Of a DNA stretch of 33,723 bases, positions 1,840 through 11,938 are shown one piece after another. The stretch spans positions 1 through 33,723 of the forward strand of contig QBMH01000076.1 in assembly GCA_003249025.1 (NCBI GenBank), in the 5' to 3' direction. This DNA comes from Leptolyngbya sp. Lineage in GTDB: Bacteria > Cyanobacteriota > Cyanobacteriia > Leptolyngbyales > Leptolyngbyaceae. The translations under genes were made by a program, and so were the position numbers. Each line of letters opens with the position of its first letter. Position 1 is the first letter of the stretch. Under the pieces are notes generated by a model that was given only the letters and a program-made list of their open reading frames with translations, was not told the origin of the DNA and did no database searches.

Positions 1840-2088
1840 ATGTCCCCTTTGTCATCACTCACCATCAGCAACGATGGTTTTGCCTTTAATGTCACCACGG
1901 GCGAAAGCTACACCCTCAATCGCTGTGCCCAAATGGTTCTGCACCGACTCCGCTCTAGCGAAACCCAGGAACAAATTGTTCAAGCGATCGCCAGTGAGTT
2001 TGGCATGGCTCAAGGCATCGTTGAACGAGATGTCGCAGACTTTTTTCAGCAACTCCATAGGCTTGGATTTGCAGGAGCCAATTCATGA
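1840..2088 (+). CDS. PqqD-like small protein (RiPP-recognition-element fold)
   Basis: An 82-residue protein with the PqqD pattern: an N-terminal beta-rich part with G-x-x-F-N-V-x-T-G-E-x-Y-x-L-N (about residues 13-28), a helix (AQMVLHRL), a repeat-like EQIVQAIASEF segment and a C-terminal DVADFFQQLHRLGF helix. In PqqD this winged-helix fold binds a precursor peptide and presents it to a modifying enzyme. No radical-SAM PqqE and no obvious precursor peptide is next to it here. It is the first gene of a four-gene operon, with a GAGGA ribosome binding site at 1831-1835 and a 4-base ATGA overlap with the ATP-grasp gene. It probably acts as a substrate-presenting partner of the ligase or decarboxylase (inference). 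PqqD-like proteins also occur outside RiPP pathways. Confidence 0.75.
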   Translation: MSPLSSLTISNDGFAFNVTTGESYTLNRCAQMVLHRLRSSETQEQIVQAIASEFGMAQGIVERDVADFFQQLHRLGFAGANS

Positions 2089-3125
2089 AACCCCTGGCAA
2101 TTGCGATCACTGGCATTAACTCCATCGATAATCCTGGTCCCGGCACCGGGGTTGCTCGCAGCCTGCGGGAAGCTGACCCGCTTGACCTGCGCTTGATCGG
2201 ATTGGCATACGATGCCACGGAACCAGGGCTGTATATGGATTGGCTGTTCGATCGCCGCTACATCATGCCCTACCCTTCTTCCGAGCCGGAAGTTGTGATT
2301 CAGCGCCTACAACAGATTCAACAGCAGTTTGGCTTGGATTGTGTGATTCCCAACTTTGATTTAGAACTGCCGCTGTATATCCGCTGTGCTAGAGAACTGG
2401 AAGCGATCGGCATCCGGACTTTTCTACCAACCAAAGCCCAGTTTGCCCTGCGGAACAAAGCGAAACTGGCAGAAATCGCTCCCCAGTTCGGCTTACAGAC
2501 TCCAGAAACAATCAGTGTCACCTCCCTCCAGGAATTGCAGCAAGCGACAGCAAAAATGGGCTTTCCGGTGATGATCAAAGGTTCTTACTACAAGGCCTAT
2601 CGAGTATTTAGCCAGGAAGAAGCGCGATCGCGCTTTCACCAACTGGCAGCAGAGGCAGGCTTTCCCATTTTGGTACAGCAGATTGTGAGGGGCATTGAAT
2701 TGAACCTAGTGGGACTGGGTGACGGCGTGGGCGGTCATCTGGGACTGGTTGCCATCAAGAAAATGGGTGTCACCGAACTGGGCAAAATTTGGAGTGGGCT
2801 GACGATTCAGCATCCCGGTTTAATCAGCGCCGCGATCGCCTTCTTGCAGCAGACCCAGTGGAAAGGTCCGTTTGAACTGGAGTGCATCGCAAGTCAGGAT
2901 GGCACCCTTTATCTGATTGAAATTAACCCGCGCTTTCCCGCCTGGATTTACTTTGCGACCGGGGTTGGCATCAATCTACCCGCCCGTATGGTACAGGCTG
3001 CTTTTGGCTTGCCCCTACCGCCCCTGCCCACCTACGAAGCGGGCAAACTCTTTATGCGCTACACCTATGAACTGGTGACAGACGCAACTCCCTTACAAAC
3101 CCTCGTGACTTTAGGAGAACGCTAA
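2085..3125 (+). CDS. ATP-grasp ligase, carbamoyl-phosphate-synthase-like
   Basis: A 346-residue stand-alone ATP-grasp enzyme. The N-terminal pre-ATP-grasp part (about 1-115) opens with a Rossmann-like AIAITGINS and a GPGTGVARSL loop. The central ATP-binding part contains GFPVMIKGSYYKA (about 158-172, nucleotide-binding lysine) and LVQQIVRGIELN (about 200-211). The C-terminal part has the metal-binding acidic set E264/E266 (FELEC) and E279-x-N281-x-R283 in EINPRF. Members activate a carboxylate as acyl phosphate and join it to an amine or other nucleophile. The substrate is unknown; the lack of CarB or DdlB specific architecture argues for a specialised ligase. It overlaps both neighbours (ATGA upstream, TAATG downstream), so it is translationally coupled to the PqqD-like protein and the decarboxylase. 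Confidence 0.85.
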   Translation: MKPLAIAITGINSIDNPGPGTGVARSLREADPLDLRLIGLAYDATEPGLYMDWLFDRRYIMPYPSSEPEVVIQRLQQIQQQFGLDCVIPNFDLELPLYIRCARELEAIGIRTFLPTKAQFALRNKAKLAEIAPQFGLQTPETISVTSLQELQQATAKMGFPVMIKGSYYKAYRVFSQEEARSRFHQLAAEAGFPILVQQIVRGIELNLVGLGDGVGGHLGLVAIKKMGVTELGKIWSGLTIQHPGLISAAIAFLQQTQWKGPFELECIASQDGTLYLIEINPRFPAWIYFATGVGINLPARMVQAAFGLPLPPLPTYEAGKLFMRYTYELVTDATPLQTLVTLGER

Positions 3126-4519
3126 TGCAGACCTACGAAAAGCCCGTGATTCATCCGTTGCACAGTGGGTTGATGAATAAGTTTGCCGGAGCGACCCCAG
3201 CCCAACGGCAGGTTAAATCCGCGATCGCCGGAGTTGCGGTTGAGGAATTAGTCGAGCAGTACGGTTCCCCTTTGTTCGTTTATTCGGAGCGCACCCTGCG
3301 GCGGCAGTTTCGCACCATCCGTAACGCCTTTGCTACCCGCTATCCCGATGTCACCTTTGGCTGGTCTTACAAAACCAATTATCTAAAAGCGATTTGCGCC
3401 ATTTTTCATCAAGAAGGGGCAATGGCAGAACTTGTCTCCAAGATGGAATACGACAAAGCCAAAGCCTTGGGGCTTCCGGGTAATCAAATCATTCTGAATG
3501 GTCCCCACAAACCCTTTGCCACCTTGGAAGCAGCGGTGCGTGATGGAGTCACGATCAACATTGATCACCTAGATGAAATTGAGGATCTGGAGGCGATCGC
3601 CACCCAACTCGATCGCCCCGTGACCGTGGGTCTTCGCCTCAATTTGGATGCAGGCATTCAACCCTGCTGGTCGCGCTTTGGTTTCAATTTGGAATCGGGG
3701 CAGGCAATGGCAGCGATTCAACGGATTGCCCAAGGCGGCAAATTACGAATTAACGGCTTGCACAGTCACATTGGCACTTACATTCTTGATCCCAACGCCT
3801 ACGCCCGTCAGGTGGAAAAAATGGTGCAGTTTGGCTACGAGATTGAGGCAACCCAGGGATGGCGGATGGACTACATCGACATTGGTGGCGGTTTTCCTTC
3901 CCGTAGTCGGTTGAAGGGAGCCTATCACGCGGCGGATGTGTTGCTGCCGACGATCGACGAATATGCCGATGCTATCTGTGATGCGATGTGGAAAGCGCTG
4001 AAACCCGGACATACGCCGAAACTGATTATTGAATCGGGTCGGGCAATGGTGGATGAAGCGGGGACATTGATCACCAGCGTGTGCGGCACCAAACGATTGC
4101 CCAATGGCACCCGCGCCTATGTCATGGATGCCGGGGTCAACTTGCTGTTCACCAGCTTTTGGTATCGCTTTGATCTGGCGCTGGCTCAACCCGTGCCTGG
4201 TGTGGCGGAACCCTCAGTGATTTACGGTCCGCTGTGCATGAATATTGACGTGATTGATGAGCAGATCTCTCTGCCGCCTTTGTCGCGGGGCGATCGCTTG
4301 GTGGTTTCCACGGTCGGAGCCTACAACAACACGCAATGGCTGCAATTTATTGAATACCGTCCCAATGTGTTGCTAGTGACCGAATCCGGCGATGTGGAAC
4401 TGATTCGGGCAGCAGAAGATATCACTGATTTAGAACGGCGGGAACATTTGCCTCCTCGATTGGCACTCCAGCCCATTCGCGATCGCAACGACAGTTTCAC
4501 CCCTACCGGAGGTCGCTAA
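3125..4519 (+). CDS. Fold-type III PLP-dependent decarboxylase (DAP/ornithine decarboxylase family)
   Basis: This 464-residue protein has the alanine-racemase-like barrel plus beta domain. Key sites are the probable PLP lysine K83 in SYKTN, HSHIGT at the barrel, the phosphate-binding glycine turn in DIGGGFPS (about 252-258), E303-S-G-R306 (ESGRAM), and the C-terminal active-site segment C371 with D375 in GPLCMNID, as in diaminopimelate and ornithine decarboxylases. It carries an N-terminal extension of about 35 residues before the usual start and is divergent at the substrate-specificity loop, so it need not be LysA. It lies in a tight operon after an ATP-grasp ligase, which suggests decarboxylation of an amino-acid-like moiety of the ligated or presented substrate. 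Its ATG overlaps the previous stop by one base. Confidence 0.87.
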   Translation: MQTYEKPVIHPLHSGLMNKFAGATPAQRQVKSAIAGVAVEELVEQYGSPLFVYSERTLRRQFRTIRNAFATRYPDVTFGWSYKTNYLKAICAIFHQEGAMAELVSKMEYDKAKALGLPGNQIILNGPHKPFATLEAAVRDGVTINIDHLDEIEDLEAIATQLDRPVTVGLRLNLDAGIQPCWSRFGFNLESGQAMAAIQRIAQGGKLRINGLHSHIGTYILDPNAYARQVEKMVQFGYEIEATQGWRMDYIDIGGGFPSRSRLKGAYHAADVLLPTIDEYADAICDAMWKALKPGHTPKLIIESGRAMVDEAGTLITSVCGTKRLPNGTRAYVMDAGVNLLFTSFWYRFDLALAQPVPGVAEPSVIYGPLCMNIDVIDEQISLPPLSRGDRLVVSTVGAYNNTQWLQFIEYRPNVLLVTESGDVELIRAAEDITDLERREHLPPRLALQPIRDRNDSFTPTGGR

Positions 4520-4522
4520 ACA

Positions 4523-6673
4523 ATGCTGGACTTGCGTGACTCATCCTCACGGTGGGGGCGTTTGAAGCTGACGACCCCAACCAGCCAGCCGTTCACCCGA
4601 TGCTGGAGCCGCTTGAAGGCGGAAACCCCTTTTCGCCTAACCCGCGCCATTTGCGCTGCCACTGCCGAGATTTTGTTTCTGCGCGGTGTGGGCACTGGAG
4701 CCTTGTTGCTGACTGCCATGCTGTTGCAACCGGGCGTGTTGATCTTGGGATTGGTGGGTGTGGTCGCAGCGGTGCTATTTGCCAGCCTGCTGCAAATTGA
4801 CCTCAGCGATCGCGATCTCAGCCCCTTGCTGTTTAATCCCTTGTTGGCGGGGTTGAGTGTGGGGTACTTATTTCAACCTAGCGCCCCGACCGTGTTTTTG
4901 GCGGCGGCGGCGGGAGGATTGGCATTTTTGCTCACCTGGGCGATTGCCCATTTTTTCAAAACCTTCCTCTGGCTACCCGTGCTGAGCCTACCGTTTATTC
5001 TGGTCAGTTGGATTGTGCATTTAGCAGCCTTTCGGTATATCGGTTTAGAACACGCCATTCTACCCGAACACGCTTACACCATTGGTCTGCCCATTTATCT
5101 AGAAGGGTTTCTTCGCACACTAGGATTGATTTTCTTTCTGCCCAATGTTTGGGTGGGCATGGTGGTTGCCTTGTTGCTGCTGTTCAATTCACGCATCCAG
5201 TTTTTGCTGGCAGTCAGCAGCTACGCCTTGGGCACCAGCCTAGGCGGGATTTTGACTGGAACGTTTGCCTATGTCTACTCCGATCCAGCGGCATTGAATT
5301 TTATTCTCGTTGCTCTGGCGATCGGCGGCTTTTATCTGCTGCCCTCACCTCGCAGCTATGGGTTAGCCGCGATCGCCGTTTCCCTGACTGCCCTAGTGAG
5401 TGAAGCCGTCAGCGTTTTCTGGGCGGCGGTCGGGTTGCCCGTTCATGCCCTGCCCTACAACCTCGTCACCTTACTGCTGTTGTACTTGCTGGGCATGTCT
5501 GGTAATCAATCGCTGGTACGCACCCCCCAGGCATCTCCAGAGAAAACCTTGGATGCCGAGCTCACCGCTCGGCGTCGCTATCAGGGCAGTGGCAGGGCGA
5601 TCGCGCTTCCGTTTGCAGGGCGTTGGTCAGTCTGGCAGGGCTGCGATGGCAAGTGGACTCACCAGGGACTCTGGCGCTATGCCTATGACTTTGTGATTCA
5701 GGATGAGCAAGGACAAACCTATCGCGGCGCTGGCACCCAGTTAGCCGACTATTACGCCTTTCAGAAACCAGTGCTGTCACCCATTCGCGGCTGGGTAGTG
5801 CGCGTGGTCAACGATGTGCCCGATTGTGCGATCGGCACCGTCAACACAGACGACAACTGGGGCAATCATGTGGTGCTATATGACGAACGGGGATTTTACA
5901 TTGAAATTTCCCACTTTGCCCAATCCAGTATTGCCGTCAAGCAGGGCGATCGCATCGAGCGGGGAACCCTAATCGGACGATGTGGCAACTCTGGTTACTC
6001 GCCCCAGCCCCACATCCACATCCAAGCGCAACTCACCCCGGAAGTGGGAGCCGCCACTATGCCTTTCAGTTTCGCCAACCTGCGAGTGAACGACGAATTC
6101 TGCACTGAATCGACCCCCGATGAAAACACCTTGCTTGAAGCGGTTGTTCCCGATCAGGCTCTATCCCAGTCGCTTAATTTTCCGCTCGATACCCAACTGA
6201 ATTTCTGCGTGTTTCACAAAGAACGGGCAATTGGGAAGCTCACTATTACAAACCGGATGGCGATCGATGGCAGTTTTTACTTCGACTCTGGCAAAGCCAA
6301 GCTATTCTACAGCCGCGATCAAGATGGTTTTATATGCCATCGTCTACAGGGAGACGATCCGGCTCTAGCGCTGTTGCTGATTGCCCTACCCAAACTACCC
6401 TTGGTACGACATCCCGGCTACCTCTGGTGGGATTATCTGTCCATTAGCACAGTCACAAGCGGAGTTCGCCGGATGTTCTATCAATTCGCTAGTTCCCTGT
6501 ATCCCCGGTTGGCATCTGCCCGTTATGCCGGACAATGGCAGTCGCCTTCGACTCTGATCGGCACTATTACCATTCCCGGCATTGCCAAAAAGTTGAATAC
6601 CTCTGTCATCTTCGATCGCACCTATCAGCTAATACGAGTCAGCGTCGGAGATCGCTCCCTCCTACGTTCATGA
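4523..6673 (+). CDS. Urea-transporter-like membrane domain fused to M23 (LytM) peptidase
   Basis: A 716-residue fusion. Residues about 45-335 form a multi-pass membrane domain with the urea-transporter signature LFNPLLAGLSVGY and a second-half repeat (LPYNLVTLLLLYLLG). A linker leads to an M23 metallopeptidase domain at about 365-520 with zinc-site candidates H380 and D389 (HQGLWRYAYD), H464 (ISHFAQ) and the H497-x-H499 pair (PHIHIQ). A further domain of roughly 190 residues with no recognised family follows. The gene begins 3 bases after the decarboxylase stop behind GGAGG (4508-4512). UT/M23 fusions are known as a domain architecture, but the job is not established. Possible roles are passage of a small operon product and cleavage or remodelling at the cell wall. 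The intact H/D/HxH set argues for an active enzyme. Confidence 0.85.
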   Translation: MLDLRDSSSRWGRLKLTTPTSQPFTRCWSRLKAETPFRLTRAICAATAEILFLRGVGTGALLLTAMLLQPGVLILGLVGVVAAVLFASLLQIDLSDRDLSPLLFNPLLAGLSVGYLFQPSAPTVFLAAAAGGLAFLLTWAIAHFFKTFLWLPVLSLPFILVSWIVHLAAFRYIGLEHAILPEHAYTIGLPIYLEGFLRTLGLIFFLPNVWVGMVVALLLLFNSRIQFLLAVSSYALGTSLGGILTGTFAYVYSDPAALNFILVALAIGGFYLLPSPRSYGLAAIAVSLTALVSEAVSVFWAAVGLPVHALPYNLVTLLLLYLLGMSGNQSLVRTPQASPEKTLDAELTARRRYQGSGRAIALPFAGRWSVWQGCDGKWTHQGLWRYAYDFVIQDEQGQTYRGAGTQLADYYAFQKPVLSPIRGWVVRVVNDVPDCAIGTVNTDDNWGNHVVLYDERGFYIEISHFAQSSIAVKQGDRIERGTLIGRCGNSGYSPQPHIHIQAQLTPEVGAATMPFSFANLRVNDEFCTESTPDENTLLEAVVPDQALSQSLNFPLDTQLNFCVFHKERAIGKLTITNRMAIDGSFYFDSGKAKLFYSRDQDGFICHRLQGDDPALALLLIALPKLPLVRHPGYLWWDYLSISTVTSGVRRMFYQFASSLYPRLASARYAGQWQSPSTLIGTITIPGIAKKLNTSVIFDRTYQLIRVSVGDRSLLRS

Positions 6674-6788: not shown

Positions 6789-9700
6789 TTAAGACACCGG
6801 GCTGAGTAGCTTATCCGTGGAGGTTTCTGGGTTCACCTCTGGGGAATCTTTCTCGGATGGGGGAACCGCTTGCCAAAACTTCGGCAGGTATTCCGACCAG
6901 TTATCCAAGATTTTTTTGGCTTTGGGACTACCAGTGCGATCGCGGTGCGCCTGAATTAACTCTTTGAGTTGCTGTTCGCCCACGGGGGAAGTAATGCGCT
7001 GGGGCTTGATAATTTCTGGGTTAACCTTGGCAGCAAAACTGCCGTCTTCATCCAAGAAGTAGGCGAGTCCGCCCGTCATGCCAGCGCCGATATTGCGTCC
7101 GGTTTTGCCCAGCACCACAATCACGCCGCCCGTCATATATTCGCAGCAGTGATCGCCAGAACCTTCAATCACGGCTTTGGCTTGGGAGTTGCGGACGGCG
7201 AACCGTTCACCTGCTAAACCCAATGCGTATAGGGTGCCGCCCGTCGCGCCATAGAGGCAAGTGTTACCGATAATCACGTTCTCGGAGGGGTCGTAGGTCG
7301 CGGTAGTCGGAGGGAAAATGACAATTTCGCCACCGTGCATTCCTTTGCCTACATAATCGTTGGCTTCGCCTTCCAGGGAAAGGGTCATACCAGGCAGGTT
7401 AAAGGCTCCAAAGCTTTGACCCGCTGCCCCGTTAAAGTTGAGTGTGATCTGTCCGCTGAAGCCGCTGTTGCCGTACTGTTTGGCGATCGCGCCTGCAATT
7501 CTGGCACCCACCGTGCGATCGGTGTTCACGACCTTCCAGGTTTTGGTTAGGTTCGTTTGGTGGGCGATCGCTGCTTGAATGTCAGCATCTGCCAAAATCT
7601 CGTCATCCAACACAAAGCCGTTGCTGTGAACTGGTTCGTGGATTAACCAAGCGCGATCGGTGCGGGTATCTGGGAGTTTGGTCAGGCAGTCTAAGTTTAG
7701 GCTGTGGGTTTTGGTCAGGGTGACCTCTTCCCGCATTTTCAGCAAATCCGCCCGTCCAATGACATCGGTGAGGGATTGGTAGCCCAAACGAGCCAGCAGC
7801 GATCGCACTTCTTCCGCTACGAAAAAGAAGAAGTTGACCACATGCTCAGGAATACCCGTAAACCGCTTGCGGAGTTCTTCTTTTTGGCTGGTTACACCCA
7901 CAGGACAGTTATTCGTGTGGCAAATTCGCGCCATGATGCAGCCTTCTGCGATCATGGCGATCGTGCCAAAGCCAAATTCTTCGCCACCCATTAATGCTGC
8001 CATGATTACATCCCAACCCGTGCGGATGCCGCCATCCACTCGCAGCAAGACGCGATCGCGCAGTTTGTTTTGCATCAGCACTCGATGCACTTCCGTTAGT
8101 CCCAGTTCCCAAGGGCTACCCGCATGTTTGATCGAACTCAGCGGCGAGGCTCCGGTGCCGCCTTCATGTCCCGAAATTTGAATCACGTCAGCGTTTGCCT
8201 TTGCCACACCCGCCGCGATCGTGCCAATGCCTACTTCTGCCACCAGTTTCACCGATACTTTGGCAGTTGGGCTGATCTGGTGCAAATCAAAAATCAGTTG
8301 GGACAAATCTTCAATCGAGTAAATATCATGGTGGGGCGGTGGCGAAATCAGCGTTACTCCGGGTTTAGAGCGGCGCAGCATGGCAATATATGGACTAACT
8401 TTATTGCCTGGAAGTTGCCCCCCTTCTCCCGGTTTGGCACCTTGAGCTACCTTGATTTCTAGCTGCTGGGCGCTGATCAAATATTCGGGAGTGACTCCAA
8501 AGCGACCCGACGCAATTTGCTTAATGGCAGAACTGACGCGATCGCCATTCTGCAACCCTCTCAAATGGGGCAATGTAGCAGATTGCCCCGCTTCATTCAC
8601 ATCATTTAAGGTTTGAAAACGAATCGGATCTTCGCCGCCTTCGCCAGAGTTGGATTTGCCGCCAATTCGGTTCATGGCGATCGCCAGGGTTTCATGTGCC
8701 TCACGAGACAACGCCCCCAACGACATACCACCCGTGCAAAATCGCTTGACAATATCGCCAGCGGATTCTACGTCTTCCAAGGGAATGGAAGGGCGATCGC
8801 TCTTGAGATCGAGCAAATCCCGTAGTGCGGTGAGTGGACGACCTGCCATATATTTTTGGTAGAGTTCGTAATGGTCGTACTGATTTTGCTGCACTGCCTT
8901 ATGCAAATGCTTAGTCATCTCCGGGCTGTTGATGTGAAACTCGCCACCCGGTCGAGAGTTGACGAAACCCATATTTTCCAGCTTTTTGATCGTCAATTCT
9001 GGAAAAGCCCGGTGATGAATCGCCATTACTTCATGCGCCAGTTCAGTTATGTTTAAACCGCCCAAGCGAGACGCAGTGCCCGAAAAGCCCAAATTGAGCA
9101 GGTCGCCGCCAATGCCGATCGCCTCAAAAATCTGGGCACCGTGATAGCTCGACAGTAGCGAAATCCCCATCTTCGACATAATCTTCAACAAGCCATCTTC
9201 GATCGCCCTACGAAAATTAGTTTCCGCCGCCACCAAGCTAATTTTTTTCAGCTTGCCCCGTTCCATAAAGCCCTGGGTTTTGGGATCATGCCACCACTGC
9301 CGCACCGTTTCCAACGCCAGATAAGGACACACAGCGCTGCCACCAAATCCAATCAGGCAAGCGAAGTGATGGGTACTCCAACATTGGGCAGTATCAACGA
9401 TGAGCGAGGCTTTCATCCGTAAGCCTTGCCGAATCAGATGGTGGTGAACTGCACCCACTGCCAATAAAGGGGGAATGTAGCTAAAGTAAGCGTTGATGCT
9501 GGCAGGAGTGCCGTTTTGAGCCGCGCGATCGCTCAAAATCAGAATTTTTTTACCTGCTTTTACCGCTGCGGTTGCCTGCTGACAGAGATCTATGACCGCT
9601 TGCAGCAAGCCATCGGGACCCAACGCAATTTTGAACAACGTTGAAAGCGTTGCTGTCTCAAACCCAGATTCACGGATGTGATCCAGTTCAGCATCATTCA

Positions 9701-11456
9701 GCACGGGGCTATCCAGTTTGATTAACCGAGCCGATTCTGGCTTGGCTTCAAGCAGGTTGATCCGTTCGCCTAGCTGCGTCGTCAAAGACATCACCAGACG
9801 TTCGCGGTAGGGATCGATCGCCGGATTAGTCACCTGAGCAAATCGCTGCTTGAAATAGTCATACAGCACATGAGGTCTGGCAGATAGCACCGCTAAGGGA
9901 ATGTCATCCCCCATGCAAAAAGTGGGTTCCTTGCCTTGAGCCGCCATCTCCTGAATGGTTAATTCCACGTCTTCTGCCGTGAAACCAAAGGCAGTTTGAT
10001 AGCGCAGAAACTCTTGCGTTTTCAACTTCGGCGTTTCGTTCTCAAATGGCTGAACTGCCAACTCTTGGCGATGCTGTTTCAGCCACTCACCGTAGGGATG
10101 GGATTGGGCAACTCGCTGCTTAATCTCCCAATTCTTAAGGATTTCGTGGGTTTGCAAATCCACCGCAATCATCTGTCCTGGACCGAGCCGTCCTTTTTCC
10201 AAAATTTCGGCTTCCGGAATGTCTACTACGCCTGCTTCTGACGCGACGACGATATACCCATCGCGGGTGATCACATACCGAGCCGGACGTAGCCCATTGC
10301 GATCGAGGGACGCGCCCACCACTTTGCCATCACAAAAAGCCAAGAGTGCTGGACCATCCCACGGTTCTTGAACGCCGCTGTAGTATTCGTAGAAATCAAC
10401 AATTTCTGGATAATCTGCCAAATCCGGCTGATTGTCATAAGCCTCTGGCACCATAATCATCAACGCTGCTTGCGGACTGCGCCCCGATCTCACCAGCAGT
10501 TCACACACATTATCCAAGTTGGCAGAGTCGCTATTTTCCATCCGCACGGTTGGCATCAGGTCAGGCAGACGATTCTTGGACGCAGACTCTCCAGAAACAT
10601 GCCAGCATTCATGTGCCAAATCGGGCTGTTTAGCCATCATCCAGTTGATGTTACCCAACAGAGTATTAATTTCGCCGTTGTGACCCAATAGTCGCATGGG
10701 TTGAGCTAGGGGCCACTTTGGCAAAGTATTAGTACTAAAACGGCGGTGATATAGGGCAAATGCGCTCTTGTAGTCTGGGTGTTTTAGGTCGGCGTAAAAC
10801 TCGCCTAGTACCGCCGATCGCACCATCCCTTTATAAACAATCGTGCGGTTGGAGAATGAACAGAGATAGAAGTCCTCGACTGTTTTCCCGACTGCCTTTT
10901 CAGCTTCTTGCAAAACCCGCTTACGAATTAGGTATAGTTGCCGCTCTAATTCATCGCCTTGCAGCGTCGATCGCACAAAAAATTGCTCGATATGCGGCTG
11001 ATTTTCTCGTGCTTGAATGCCCAAACACTCTGGATACACAGGCACGACACGCCAGCCTAAAACCGTGGCTCCTTCTTCAATGGAAACTTGCTCTAGGGCT
11101 TTGCGGGCGATCTCCGCCACAGGCGCATCTTGGGGCAAAAACACCATGCCCACTCCAATGGATTCCCGTGCAGGTTGAATACCCTTGGCTGCAAACCAGG
11201 CAGCGAAAAGATCCCAGGGGATGGAGGTCATCACACCCGCCCCATCTCCAGAATCTTGGTCAGCGCTGCATCCGCCTCGATGCTCTAGGCAGGTTGCAGC
11301 AATCAATGCTTTTTCAACCAACTCATGGCTAGCTCGCCCTTGCTGGTCGGCAATAAAGCCAACGCCACAAGCATCGCGCTCTTCTACTAACCAGCGTTGC
11401 CCTTCATATCCACTATTCGACTGATTGCTATCCCGATTCACAGTTACATTAGCCAT
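6789..11456 (-). CDS. glsF: Ferredoxin-dependent glutamate synthase (Fd-GOGAT)
   Basis: The 1555-aa enzyme makes two glutamates from glutamine and 2-oxoglutarate with electrons from reduced ferredoxin, completing the GS-GOGAT cycle. Domains in order are the class-II glutaminase (nucleophile Cys in [12 protein letters not shown], exposed after removal of a propeptide of about 29 residues), a central domain, the FMN-binding synthase barrel ([26 protein letters not shown]), the 3Fe-4S cysteines in [15 protein letters not shown], and the C-terminal beta-helix (GxxGG-type repeats, [10 protein letters not shown]). An insertion after [10 protein letters not shown] ([15 protein letters not shown] region) matches the ferredoxin loop absent from NADPH-type GltB. 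The ATG at 11456 (MANVTV) is preferred over an in-frame upstream start at 11501 because it gives the normal short propeptide. The gene is also called gltS in cyanobacteria. The next gene downstream, 4523-6673, is convergent. Confidence 0.96.
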
Positions 11457-11938
11457 GACAATGACGTATTTCGTTCGGTTGGTAAGATGTTTTTTTAACA
11501 AAGTCTACTAAGGACTAGGTTTTGCTTTTGAATTTCTTAAGGGCTGCCATAGGCATCGTTATCACCCATTTCAGGGCTGGAAAATGCAGACGCTTTGTCA
11601 GAAAATCAAAACCAAACTCCATAAAAGATCACTATAAAAGGAATCATTACTTAAAAAACAGTTTGAGATTGATCAACATTACAGGGAAAAGACCGTGAAG
11701 AAGAGTACAGCAGGAACCAAACACAAATTAGGCTAAAAGACGGCAGAAACAACCTTCGGATAGCATTTACATTGAAAGCGGAAGACGATCTTAGGGTCAA
11801 TGCAATAGCCAATGAGTGGTTACCTAGAGTTCTCTTAGAATAGAGTCTCCTTTCTTAATTATGAGAGGCAAATCTGTCTTTGGACTTGGAGTTTATTGAA
11901 TCATAGGCAGTAAGAGAAAAAGGAATGAGTGCCAAACA
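11457..11938. other. Divergent intergenic region between glsF and the NAGPA gene
   Basis: About 480 bp of AT-rich DNA between two divergent genes, so it should carry both promoters. No convincing coding frame was seen. A TATAGT hexamer on the minus strand (11631-11636) is a possible -10 for glsF without a good -35. A TAGAAT at 11836-11841 could be a -10 for the NAGPA gene, also with a poor -35. A GTG-N8-TAC NtcA-like match at 11695-11708 was examined and not accepted. Confidence 0.5.

Follow-up and report, generated by a model that had tools for sequence, protein, structure and literature searches.

A four-gene operon of Leptolyngbya kept across 15 phylum-level groups may encode an unnamed biosynthesis-and-export pathway

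A four-gene operon of Leptolyngbya sp. was analyzed within a window of 33,723 nucleotides (the whole stretch of DNA under analysis; positions 1 to 33,723 of contig QBMH01000076.1, assembly GCA_003249025.1). The operon encodes a PqqD-like protein, an ATP-grasp ligase, a pyridoxal-phosphate (PLP) decarboxylase and a fusion (UT-M23) of a urea-transporter fold with an M23 metallopeptidase domain. The four genes are inherited jointly and on this basis function as one unit; genes retained as a set in 15 phylum-level groups, and retained even when unlinked on the chromosome, almost certainly share one job. We propose that the set is an unnamed, conserved biosynthesis-and-export operon that would make a small amide-linked product by ligation and decarboxylation and then release and export it, with the substrate, the product and the transport all putative. 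The probability of this reading is, in our estimate, about 40%. The operon comprises the following features.

1840 to 2088, + strand: PqqD-like protein, 82 amino acids, of the fold family of the recognition element (RRE) of ribosomally synthesized and post-translationally modified peptides (RiPPs) (PF05402)
2085 to 3125, + strand: ATP-grasp ligase, 346 amino acids (invariant catalytic residues, fold of model)
3125 to 4519, + strand: alanine-racemase-fold (type III) PLP decarboxylase, 464 amino acids, not LysA (Pfam, invariant residues)
4523 to 6673, + strand: UT-M23 fusion, 716 amino acids, with urea-transporter fold, M23 metallopeptidase domain and C-terminal beta-rich part
4643 to 5488, + strand: UT (channel) domain of UT-M23 (PF03253 match)
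5606 to 6112, + strand: M23 domain of UT-M23, about residues 362-530 (PF01551)

The frames, coordinates and couplings given for these genes in the original prediction, which was made from the sequence alone, were all confirmed: the PqqD-like and ATP-grasp frames share an ATGA overlap at 2085-2088, the ATP-grasp and decarboxylase frames share a TAATG overlap at 3123-3127, and a 3-base gap separates the decarboxylase from UT-M23. The family named for each gene was likewise borne out, the ATP-grasp being weak in Pfam and assigned from its fold and catalytic residues. A promoter and terminator scan gave nothing exceeding shuffled sequences.

The GTDB species genomes were scanned with an alignment of the ATP-grasp, which yielded 100 relatives, and the best 80 loci were read. 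Because this sample was picked by the ATP-grasp, its counts measure what accompanies that gene. The 80 loci span the 15 phylum-level groups, with ATP-grasp identities of 49-87%. Adjoining the ATP-grasp gene were the genes for the PqqD-like protein (77 of 80 loci), the decarboxylase (76) and UT-M23 (69), with the order mostly kept. The commonest neighbor beyond this set and two downstream genes described below was a two-component protein, present in 18 loci; all others were present in 11 or fewer. Most missing partners were explained by contig ends (for example in L084, L088, L098 and L131). Real exceptions were L067 with the ATP-grasp alone, L111 with PqqD and ATP-grasp alone, and L071, L133 and L138, which are without UT-M23. 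Locus L109 resembles L111, but its contig stops about 1 kb downstream; since other Aquificota split the parts over contigs, both loci may do likewise. In L137 the order UT-M23, barrel, tetratricopeptide repeat (TPR) protein, PqqD, ATP-grasp, decarboxylase makes two blocks visible.

Joint presence extends beyond adjacency. Among 390 genomes of the cyanobacterial class, 23 contained a UT domain and eight a UT-M23-type protein (one of them cut by a contig end), and all eight had the PqqD, ATP-grasp and decarboxylase genes alongside in the same order. An independent profile search of the 390 genomes with the ATP-grasp recovered the identical eight and no other (Fisher p 8e-17); in the ATP-grasp tree the closest relatives of the Leptolyngbya genome were Scytolyngbya and Pantanalinema (Leptolyngbyaceae). 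In 121 Aquificota genomes, where each large gene was searched separately, the ATP-grasp, UT-M23 and the decarboxylase were found in 40 each, with all three in 38 and none in 79. The genes were not all adjacent in 13 of the 38; some of these cases are contig breaks (G600, G622), several have the genes on different contigs, and in G539 195 kb of a single contig separates UT-M23 from the rest. Joint presence in spite of such splitting indicates a link that exceeds mere proximity. Pairwise distances of the four proteins correlated with r of 0.75-0.91; shuffling the labels left r no higher than 0.25. No copies of the ATP-grasp, the decarboxylase or a full UT-M23 were found in a plasmid collection. 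The expectation that the four genes stay together thus held in related and in very distant genomes, and in cyanobacteria and Aquificota the genes are gained and lost jointly.

Several irregular copies were seen in the course of this survey. A Brasilonema UT-M23 (L066, 12455-13883) is without the equivalent of residues 368-605 (M23 and beyond) and lies in two frames, which suggests either that the gene is broken or that the assembly is at fault. An additional upstream PqqD with a partial ATP-grasp stands beside an intact cassette in L136 (188-893), as does a second partial ATP-grasp in G554 (contig C65, 21136-21585), and both read as remains of tandem duplication. Near the PqqD and ATP-grasp genes of the two Aquificales loci, an ABC-type ATPase gene lies immediately upstream in L109, and in L111 a transposase-like gene lies between.

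The UT-M23 protein matched UT (PF03253) at 157.7 bits (cut-off 25) and Peptidase_M23 (PF01551) at 40 bits. In its AlphaFold2 model (mean local confidence, pLDDT, 87; template-modeling score, pTM, 0.79) the UT half (residues 26-348) matched 3k3f with a Z of 34.9 over 313 residues, and the M23 part matched 7qrl with a Z of 14.5 and LytM-type domains with a Z of about 14; no named fold was found for residues 531-716 as judged within the full-length model. The protein therefore has its fold in common with the urea transporters of PF03253 such as dvUT and UT-B, from which it differs in being fused to the M23 domain and the C-terminal beta-rich part and, relative to dvUT, in having mostly Ala at position E187. 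At the dvUT filter positions (PMC4357013) of 46 UT-M23 sequences, F52 and F205 are kept, the T130 position is Ser in 43, and in place of E187 stands Ala (32 sequences) or Leu (5). UT-A and UT-B likewise vary at filter positions (PMC4357013). With Ala at most E187 positions, the solute may be something other than urea. In L034 (G330) a cyanobacterial urea transporter that lacks M23 has a C-terminal region reading like EF-hand repeats, which makes it an apparent calcium-linked UT fusion.

Each subunit of the solved urea transporters contains ten helices (PMC10541013), which places both termini on one side. Under this assumed ten-helix layout the loops of the N-terminal side hold 12.6 Lys and Arg residues versus 2.8 on the other side, with the same bias in all 46 sequences. 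From this distribution and the urea-transporter fold, the M23 domain is predicted to be cytoplasmic. The closest stand-alone M23 proteins found, in a search of the plasmid collection only, came from Thermus (42% over 177 residues) and haloarchaea. Haloarchaea have no peptidoglycan, so their M23 proteins would need another substrate or serve against bacteria. The wall peptidase of the original prediction is doubtful on both counts. The Thermus and haloarchaeal proteins (L152, L153, L154) carry the signature LPFxGxW...RYAYDF...CGNSG of the UT-M23 domain.

Immediately 3' of UT-M23 lie a gene for a beta-barrel protein in 45 of the 80 loci and one for a TPR protein in 47, neither of them in cyanobacteria. 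The beta-barrel call is a sequence reading: Pfam finds only TPR repeats in a longer form of the protein and, in the short form, no domain at all. UT-M23 is followed instead by an S-layer-homology (SLH) porin, annotated as an 'iron uptake porin', in three Scytonemataceae loci. The description of the four genes as a complete module was not supported, as most non-cyanobacterial copies add the two further genes. In seven loci (L113, L132, L134, L135, L139, L140, L141) of Desulfurobacteriaceae and Thermodesulfobacteria, a DUF4405 membrane protein and a second protein (with an OB-fold domain in L140) are encoded upstream of PqqD, several of them behind a two-component pair (a sigma-54 activator and a kinase in L134).

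These observations bear on a different role, toward which the original prediction leaned, in which peptidoglycan or the outer membrane would be decorated with an amine or amide made by the enzymes, and M23 would act as a periplasmic wall peptidase. Such an envelope modification would suit the M23 zinc and catalytic residues (H380, D389, H464, H497 and H499), which are kept in 46 of 46 sequences, and a fold closest to LytM-type wall peptidases. It would also suit the beta-barrel and TPR neighbors in about 45 of the 80 loci, the two membranes of the lineages concerned, and the Spy/CpxP-like and two-component neighbors in cyanobacteria. By contrast, the way charges are distributed, together with an even helix count, predicts M23 to lie in the cytoplasm, and its nearest stand-alone relatives found include haloarchaea, which have no peptidoglycan. 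We consider envelope modification unlikely.

The PqqD-like protein matched PF05402 at 42.9 bits (cut-off 23.4), and its profile matched the lasso-peptide chaperones TfuB1 and TbiB1 with E of about 1e-11. An alignment of 38 sequences showed seven invariant positions and no invariant Ser. The protein is thus of one family, by profile, with PqqD and the lasso-peptide RRE proteins; unlike those systems, the cassette comes without PqqC and without a precursor gene found nearby. Biosynthesis of pyrroloquinoline quinone was rejected because none of 23 genomes had a PqqC (TIGR02111) above cut-off, the best score being 63 of 240 bits. The role of substrate presenter given to the protein in the original prediction is one that we still infer.

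If the PqqD-like protein were instead the RRE of a RiPP pathway, the ligase and decarboxylase would modify a peptide encoded elsewhere, M23 would trim the leader and the channel would export the product. The match to the lasso-peptide chaperones is in keeping with this, as is the fact that many RRE domains outside pyrroloquinoline quinone biosynthesis fall in PF05402 (PMC12710340). Set against it are the lack of a conserved small frame around the cassette in the 80 loci and a urea-transporter pore too narrow for peptides, with a 2-3 A constriction in solved structures (PMC10541013); a RiPP pathway is in our view decidedly unlikely.

The ATP-grasp scored 27.4 bits against PF15632 (cut-off 29.1) and 21.7 bits against CPSase_L_D2 (cut-off 19.8). 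Its AlphaFold2 model (pLDDT 90) had 2pn1 as the nearest fold, with a Z of 28.7 and a root-mean-square deviation of 2.7 over 288 residues, and residues K125, K165, E264, E266, E279, N281 and R283 were invariant in 57 sequences. The fold matches do not discriminate among biotin carboxylases, PurD/PurK and PylC. The likeness to ATPgrasp_Ter (PF15632), a family of Ter-operon biosynthetic pathways, is weak and under the cut-off; no Ter genes were seen beside the cassette, in an inspection that included no profile search aimed at them.

The decarboxylase matched Orn_Arg_deC_N at 114 bits and Orn_DAP_Arg_deC at 51 bits in Pfam. In NCBIfam it reached 220.5 bits with lysA (TIGR01048; cut-off 297.9) and 217 bits with FslC (cut-off 500), and its nearest solved structure was FslC/FigC (7kh2). 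Across 51 sequences K83, H215, G254-G256, E303-G305-R306 and C371 were invariant. The enzyme resembles LysA, the diaminopimelate (DAP) decarboxylase, in its fold, PLP lysine and E-x-G-R motif. It differs in falling under the family cut-off, in having Thr and Cys-Met in place of Arg and Cys-Glu, and in the presence of a separate LysA. The latter lies on another contig of the same genome and scored 469.7 bits; a third, weaker homologue was assigned as SpeA on the strength of its length and of a speA match. A separate LysA above cut-off was present in 16 of the 22 other cassette genomes.

Residues that set specificity in FigC and DAP decarboxylases were taken from the literature (PMC7857480). The genome's own LysA shows NPRP and CESGD, at which the cassette enzyme has T343 and C371-M-N-I-D in 51 of 51 sequences, so that the LysA specificity Arg is replaced by T343 and its Cys-Glu by C371-M372 throughout. 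M372 (51 of 51) equals M355 of FigC, and a Tyr on the specificity helix (Y347) is present in 50 of 51. FigC contacts citrate through H357 and R387, whose equivalents are Ile374 and Gln404 in all 51, and no variation was seen at T343, W346, C371-D375 or Q404. Invariant yet altered specificity residues indicate a single specific substrate other than DAP or N-citrylornithine. FigC, SbnH, AcsE, MccE and BtrK act on conjugated amino acids and are grouped with the DAP decarboxylases (PMC7857480). By its sequence the cassette decarboxylase appears to belong with these FslC/BtrK-like enzymes. From their precedent and the ligase gene alongside, it may itself act on a conjugated amino acid. The phrase 'ligate and decarboxylate' in the original prediction is consistent with both enzyme families.

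The nearest solved relative also raises a rhizoferrin-type pathway to a siderophore or metallophore, in which the decarboxylase would be an N-citryl-amino-acid decarboxylase. The cassette resembles rhizoferrin FslA-FslC (FigA-FigC) in that its decarboxylase is structurally nearest FslC, with the C-M motif and the Tyr on the specificity elements in common; a CusA/CzcA pump lies upstream in Persephonella-type loci, and the 'iron uptake porin' adjoins the operon in the three Scytonemataceae loci. It differs in having an ATP-grasp in place of an NRPS-independent siderophore (NIS) synthetase (PF04183), which was found in none of 23 cassette genomes with positive controls in E. coli and Haloferax, and in the replaced citrate contacts. 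A rhizoferrin-type siderophore as such was ruled out by these two differences, and any pathway of this type is very improbable. There is practically no chance that the decarboxylase is a housekeeping LysA in a cluster formed by positional accident: lysA is its top NCBIfam profile and 6 of the 22 other genomes, some of them drafts, have no separate match above the lysA cut-off, but that cut-off is not reached, a full-score LysA exists here and in the 16 others, the DAP-binding residues are absent, and the cluster is kept over so many groups. Neither of the two outcomes named as refuting in the original prediction was thus observed.

In the proposed biosynthesis-and-export pathway, the PqqD-like protein would bind a peptide or partner and help present the acceptor to the ATP-grasp. 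The ATP-grasp, whose fold and catalytic residues are established, would spend ATP on joining a carboxylate to an amino acid through an amide bond. The alanine-racemase-fold enzyme, with its distinctive residue pattern, would then take the alpha-carboxyl off the conjugated amino acid; precedents are FslC/FigC, SbnH, MccE and BtrK, whose substrates are amino acids linked to a citryl or peptidyl group or to a carrier. M23, predicted on the cytoplasmic face of the urea-transporter-like channel, might cut or sense the conjugate, and the product might exit via the channel. In most non-cyanobacteria the beta-barrel and TPR proteins may carry the product across the outer membrane or tether the complex to it. 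As far as genomes go, the gene set and the enzyme families of the pathway first predicted stand; its wall peptidase is doubtful, and its completeness was not supported.

Several points weigh against this proposal. A search of frames of 20-110 amino acids around the cassette in the 80 loci found no conserved gene for a precursor or carrier peptide; apart from PqqD, only antisense or alternative readings of the barrel and TPR genes recurred, and the search leaves room for distant or shorter genes. Near the ATP-grasp, L111, L133 and L138 are without parts of the set. The Lys and Arg bias depends on the ten-helix layout, and without the N-terminus and C-linker it falls to 4.2 versus 2.8 (37 of 46 sequences). 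To our knowledge, M23 enzymes are nearly always located outside the cytoplasm. The solutes that urea transporters pass are small and neutral, whereas decarboxylation of an amino acid leaves a product with an amine. Archaeal enzymes that hydrolyze peptidoglycan and act against bacteria have been reported (PMC12352652).

Among known systems the nearest logic is that of butirosin BtrI-BtrJ-BtrK, likewise a small protein, an ATP-grasp and a decarboxylase on a conjugated amino acid. BtrJ is the ATP-grasp ligase of butirosin assembly. BtrK and BtrI, a protein of 87 amino acids, belong to the same assembly (PMC7857480). BtrI is an acyl carrier protein, in contrast to the PqqD-like small protein with its lack of an invariant Ser for phosphopantetheine, and butirosin has no counterpart to UT-M23, the beta-barrel or the TPR protein, nor the phylum-level spread of the cassette. 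None of the four proteins attains a named NCBIfam equivalog. Literature searches for the set and for a urea transporter with M23 found no description of the set in a library that did not extend to preprints or to most subscription papers. The original statement that no named pathway has this set agrees with the family libraries and papers searched. We rate the gene content as new, in no named family or system, and the proposed chemistry as following known precedents.

A bolder version is unlikely as a whole: a widely spread, unrecognised pathway would make a new class of small decarboxylated amide metabolite with a PqqD-like presenter, pass it directly from a cytoplasmic M23 into the fused channel and on to a dedicated outer-membrane barrel, and answer metal or envelope stress. 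Working out the set would bring to light a new metabolite, assign UT-M23 fusions their first function and perhaps show an M23 peptidase at work in the cytoplasm, in a cassette carried by about a third of the sampled Aquificota genomes.

The region upstream of the operon contains features that point to its regulation.

2 to 385, - strand: predicted partner histidine kinase, start only, cut by the contig end (open frame; L063 equivalent)
382 to 1065, - strand: OmpR-type response regulator, divergent from the operon (Response_reg 85 bits, Trans_reg_C 99.7 bits)
1117 to 1134, + strand: operator-like box AATTACAAAACTGTAATC, between the regulator and LTXXQ genes
1241 to 1705, + strand: small LTXXQ-like protein with apparent signal sequence, Spy/CpxP type (weak; PF07813 21.6 bits)
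1742 to 1759, + strand: operator-like box AATGACAACTTTGTAATC, upstream of the four-gene operon

The response regulator probably controls the operon. Its best match was the cztR/silR/copR heavy-metal family (TIGR01387, 241 bits, under the cut-off of 279), and the cyanobacterial relatives examined have homologous two-component genes upstream; the gene in the kinase position of L063 is cztS/copS-like (233 bits, under the cut-off of 293). The LTXXQ-like protein is under the PF07813 cut-off of 24.3 and has homologues solely in close cyanobacterial relatives (a cluster of three). The pattern AATKACAANNYTGTMATC, derived from the boxes at 1117 and 1742, fits only these two sites in the window (0.02 expected), which precede the LTXXQ gene and the operon, respectively. 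Upstream of PqqD in L063 the box is a perfect palindrome, AATGACAAATTTGTCAT, and similar boxes occur in relatives. With at most three mismatches the box was found in 7 of the 80 loci, five of them cyanobacterial, versus 1.6 in shuffled sequence, which makes it local to that group. It presumably resembles the E. coli CusR box; a literature search did not confirm this likeness. A CusA/CzcA pump lies upstream in L114 (924 bits, cut-off 701), with relatives in L104 and L118. The CusR-like boxes and the pump hint at metal or envelope stress, and in these cyanobacteria a CusR/CopR-like two-component system probably turns on the operon under such stress. On the other side of the operon, a frame of 1570 amino acids at window positions 6789-11501, which shows no sign of belonging to the operon, is convergent to it and reads as a glutamate synthase.

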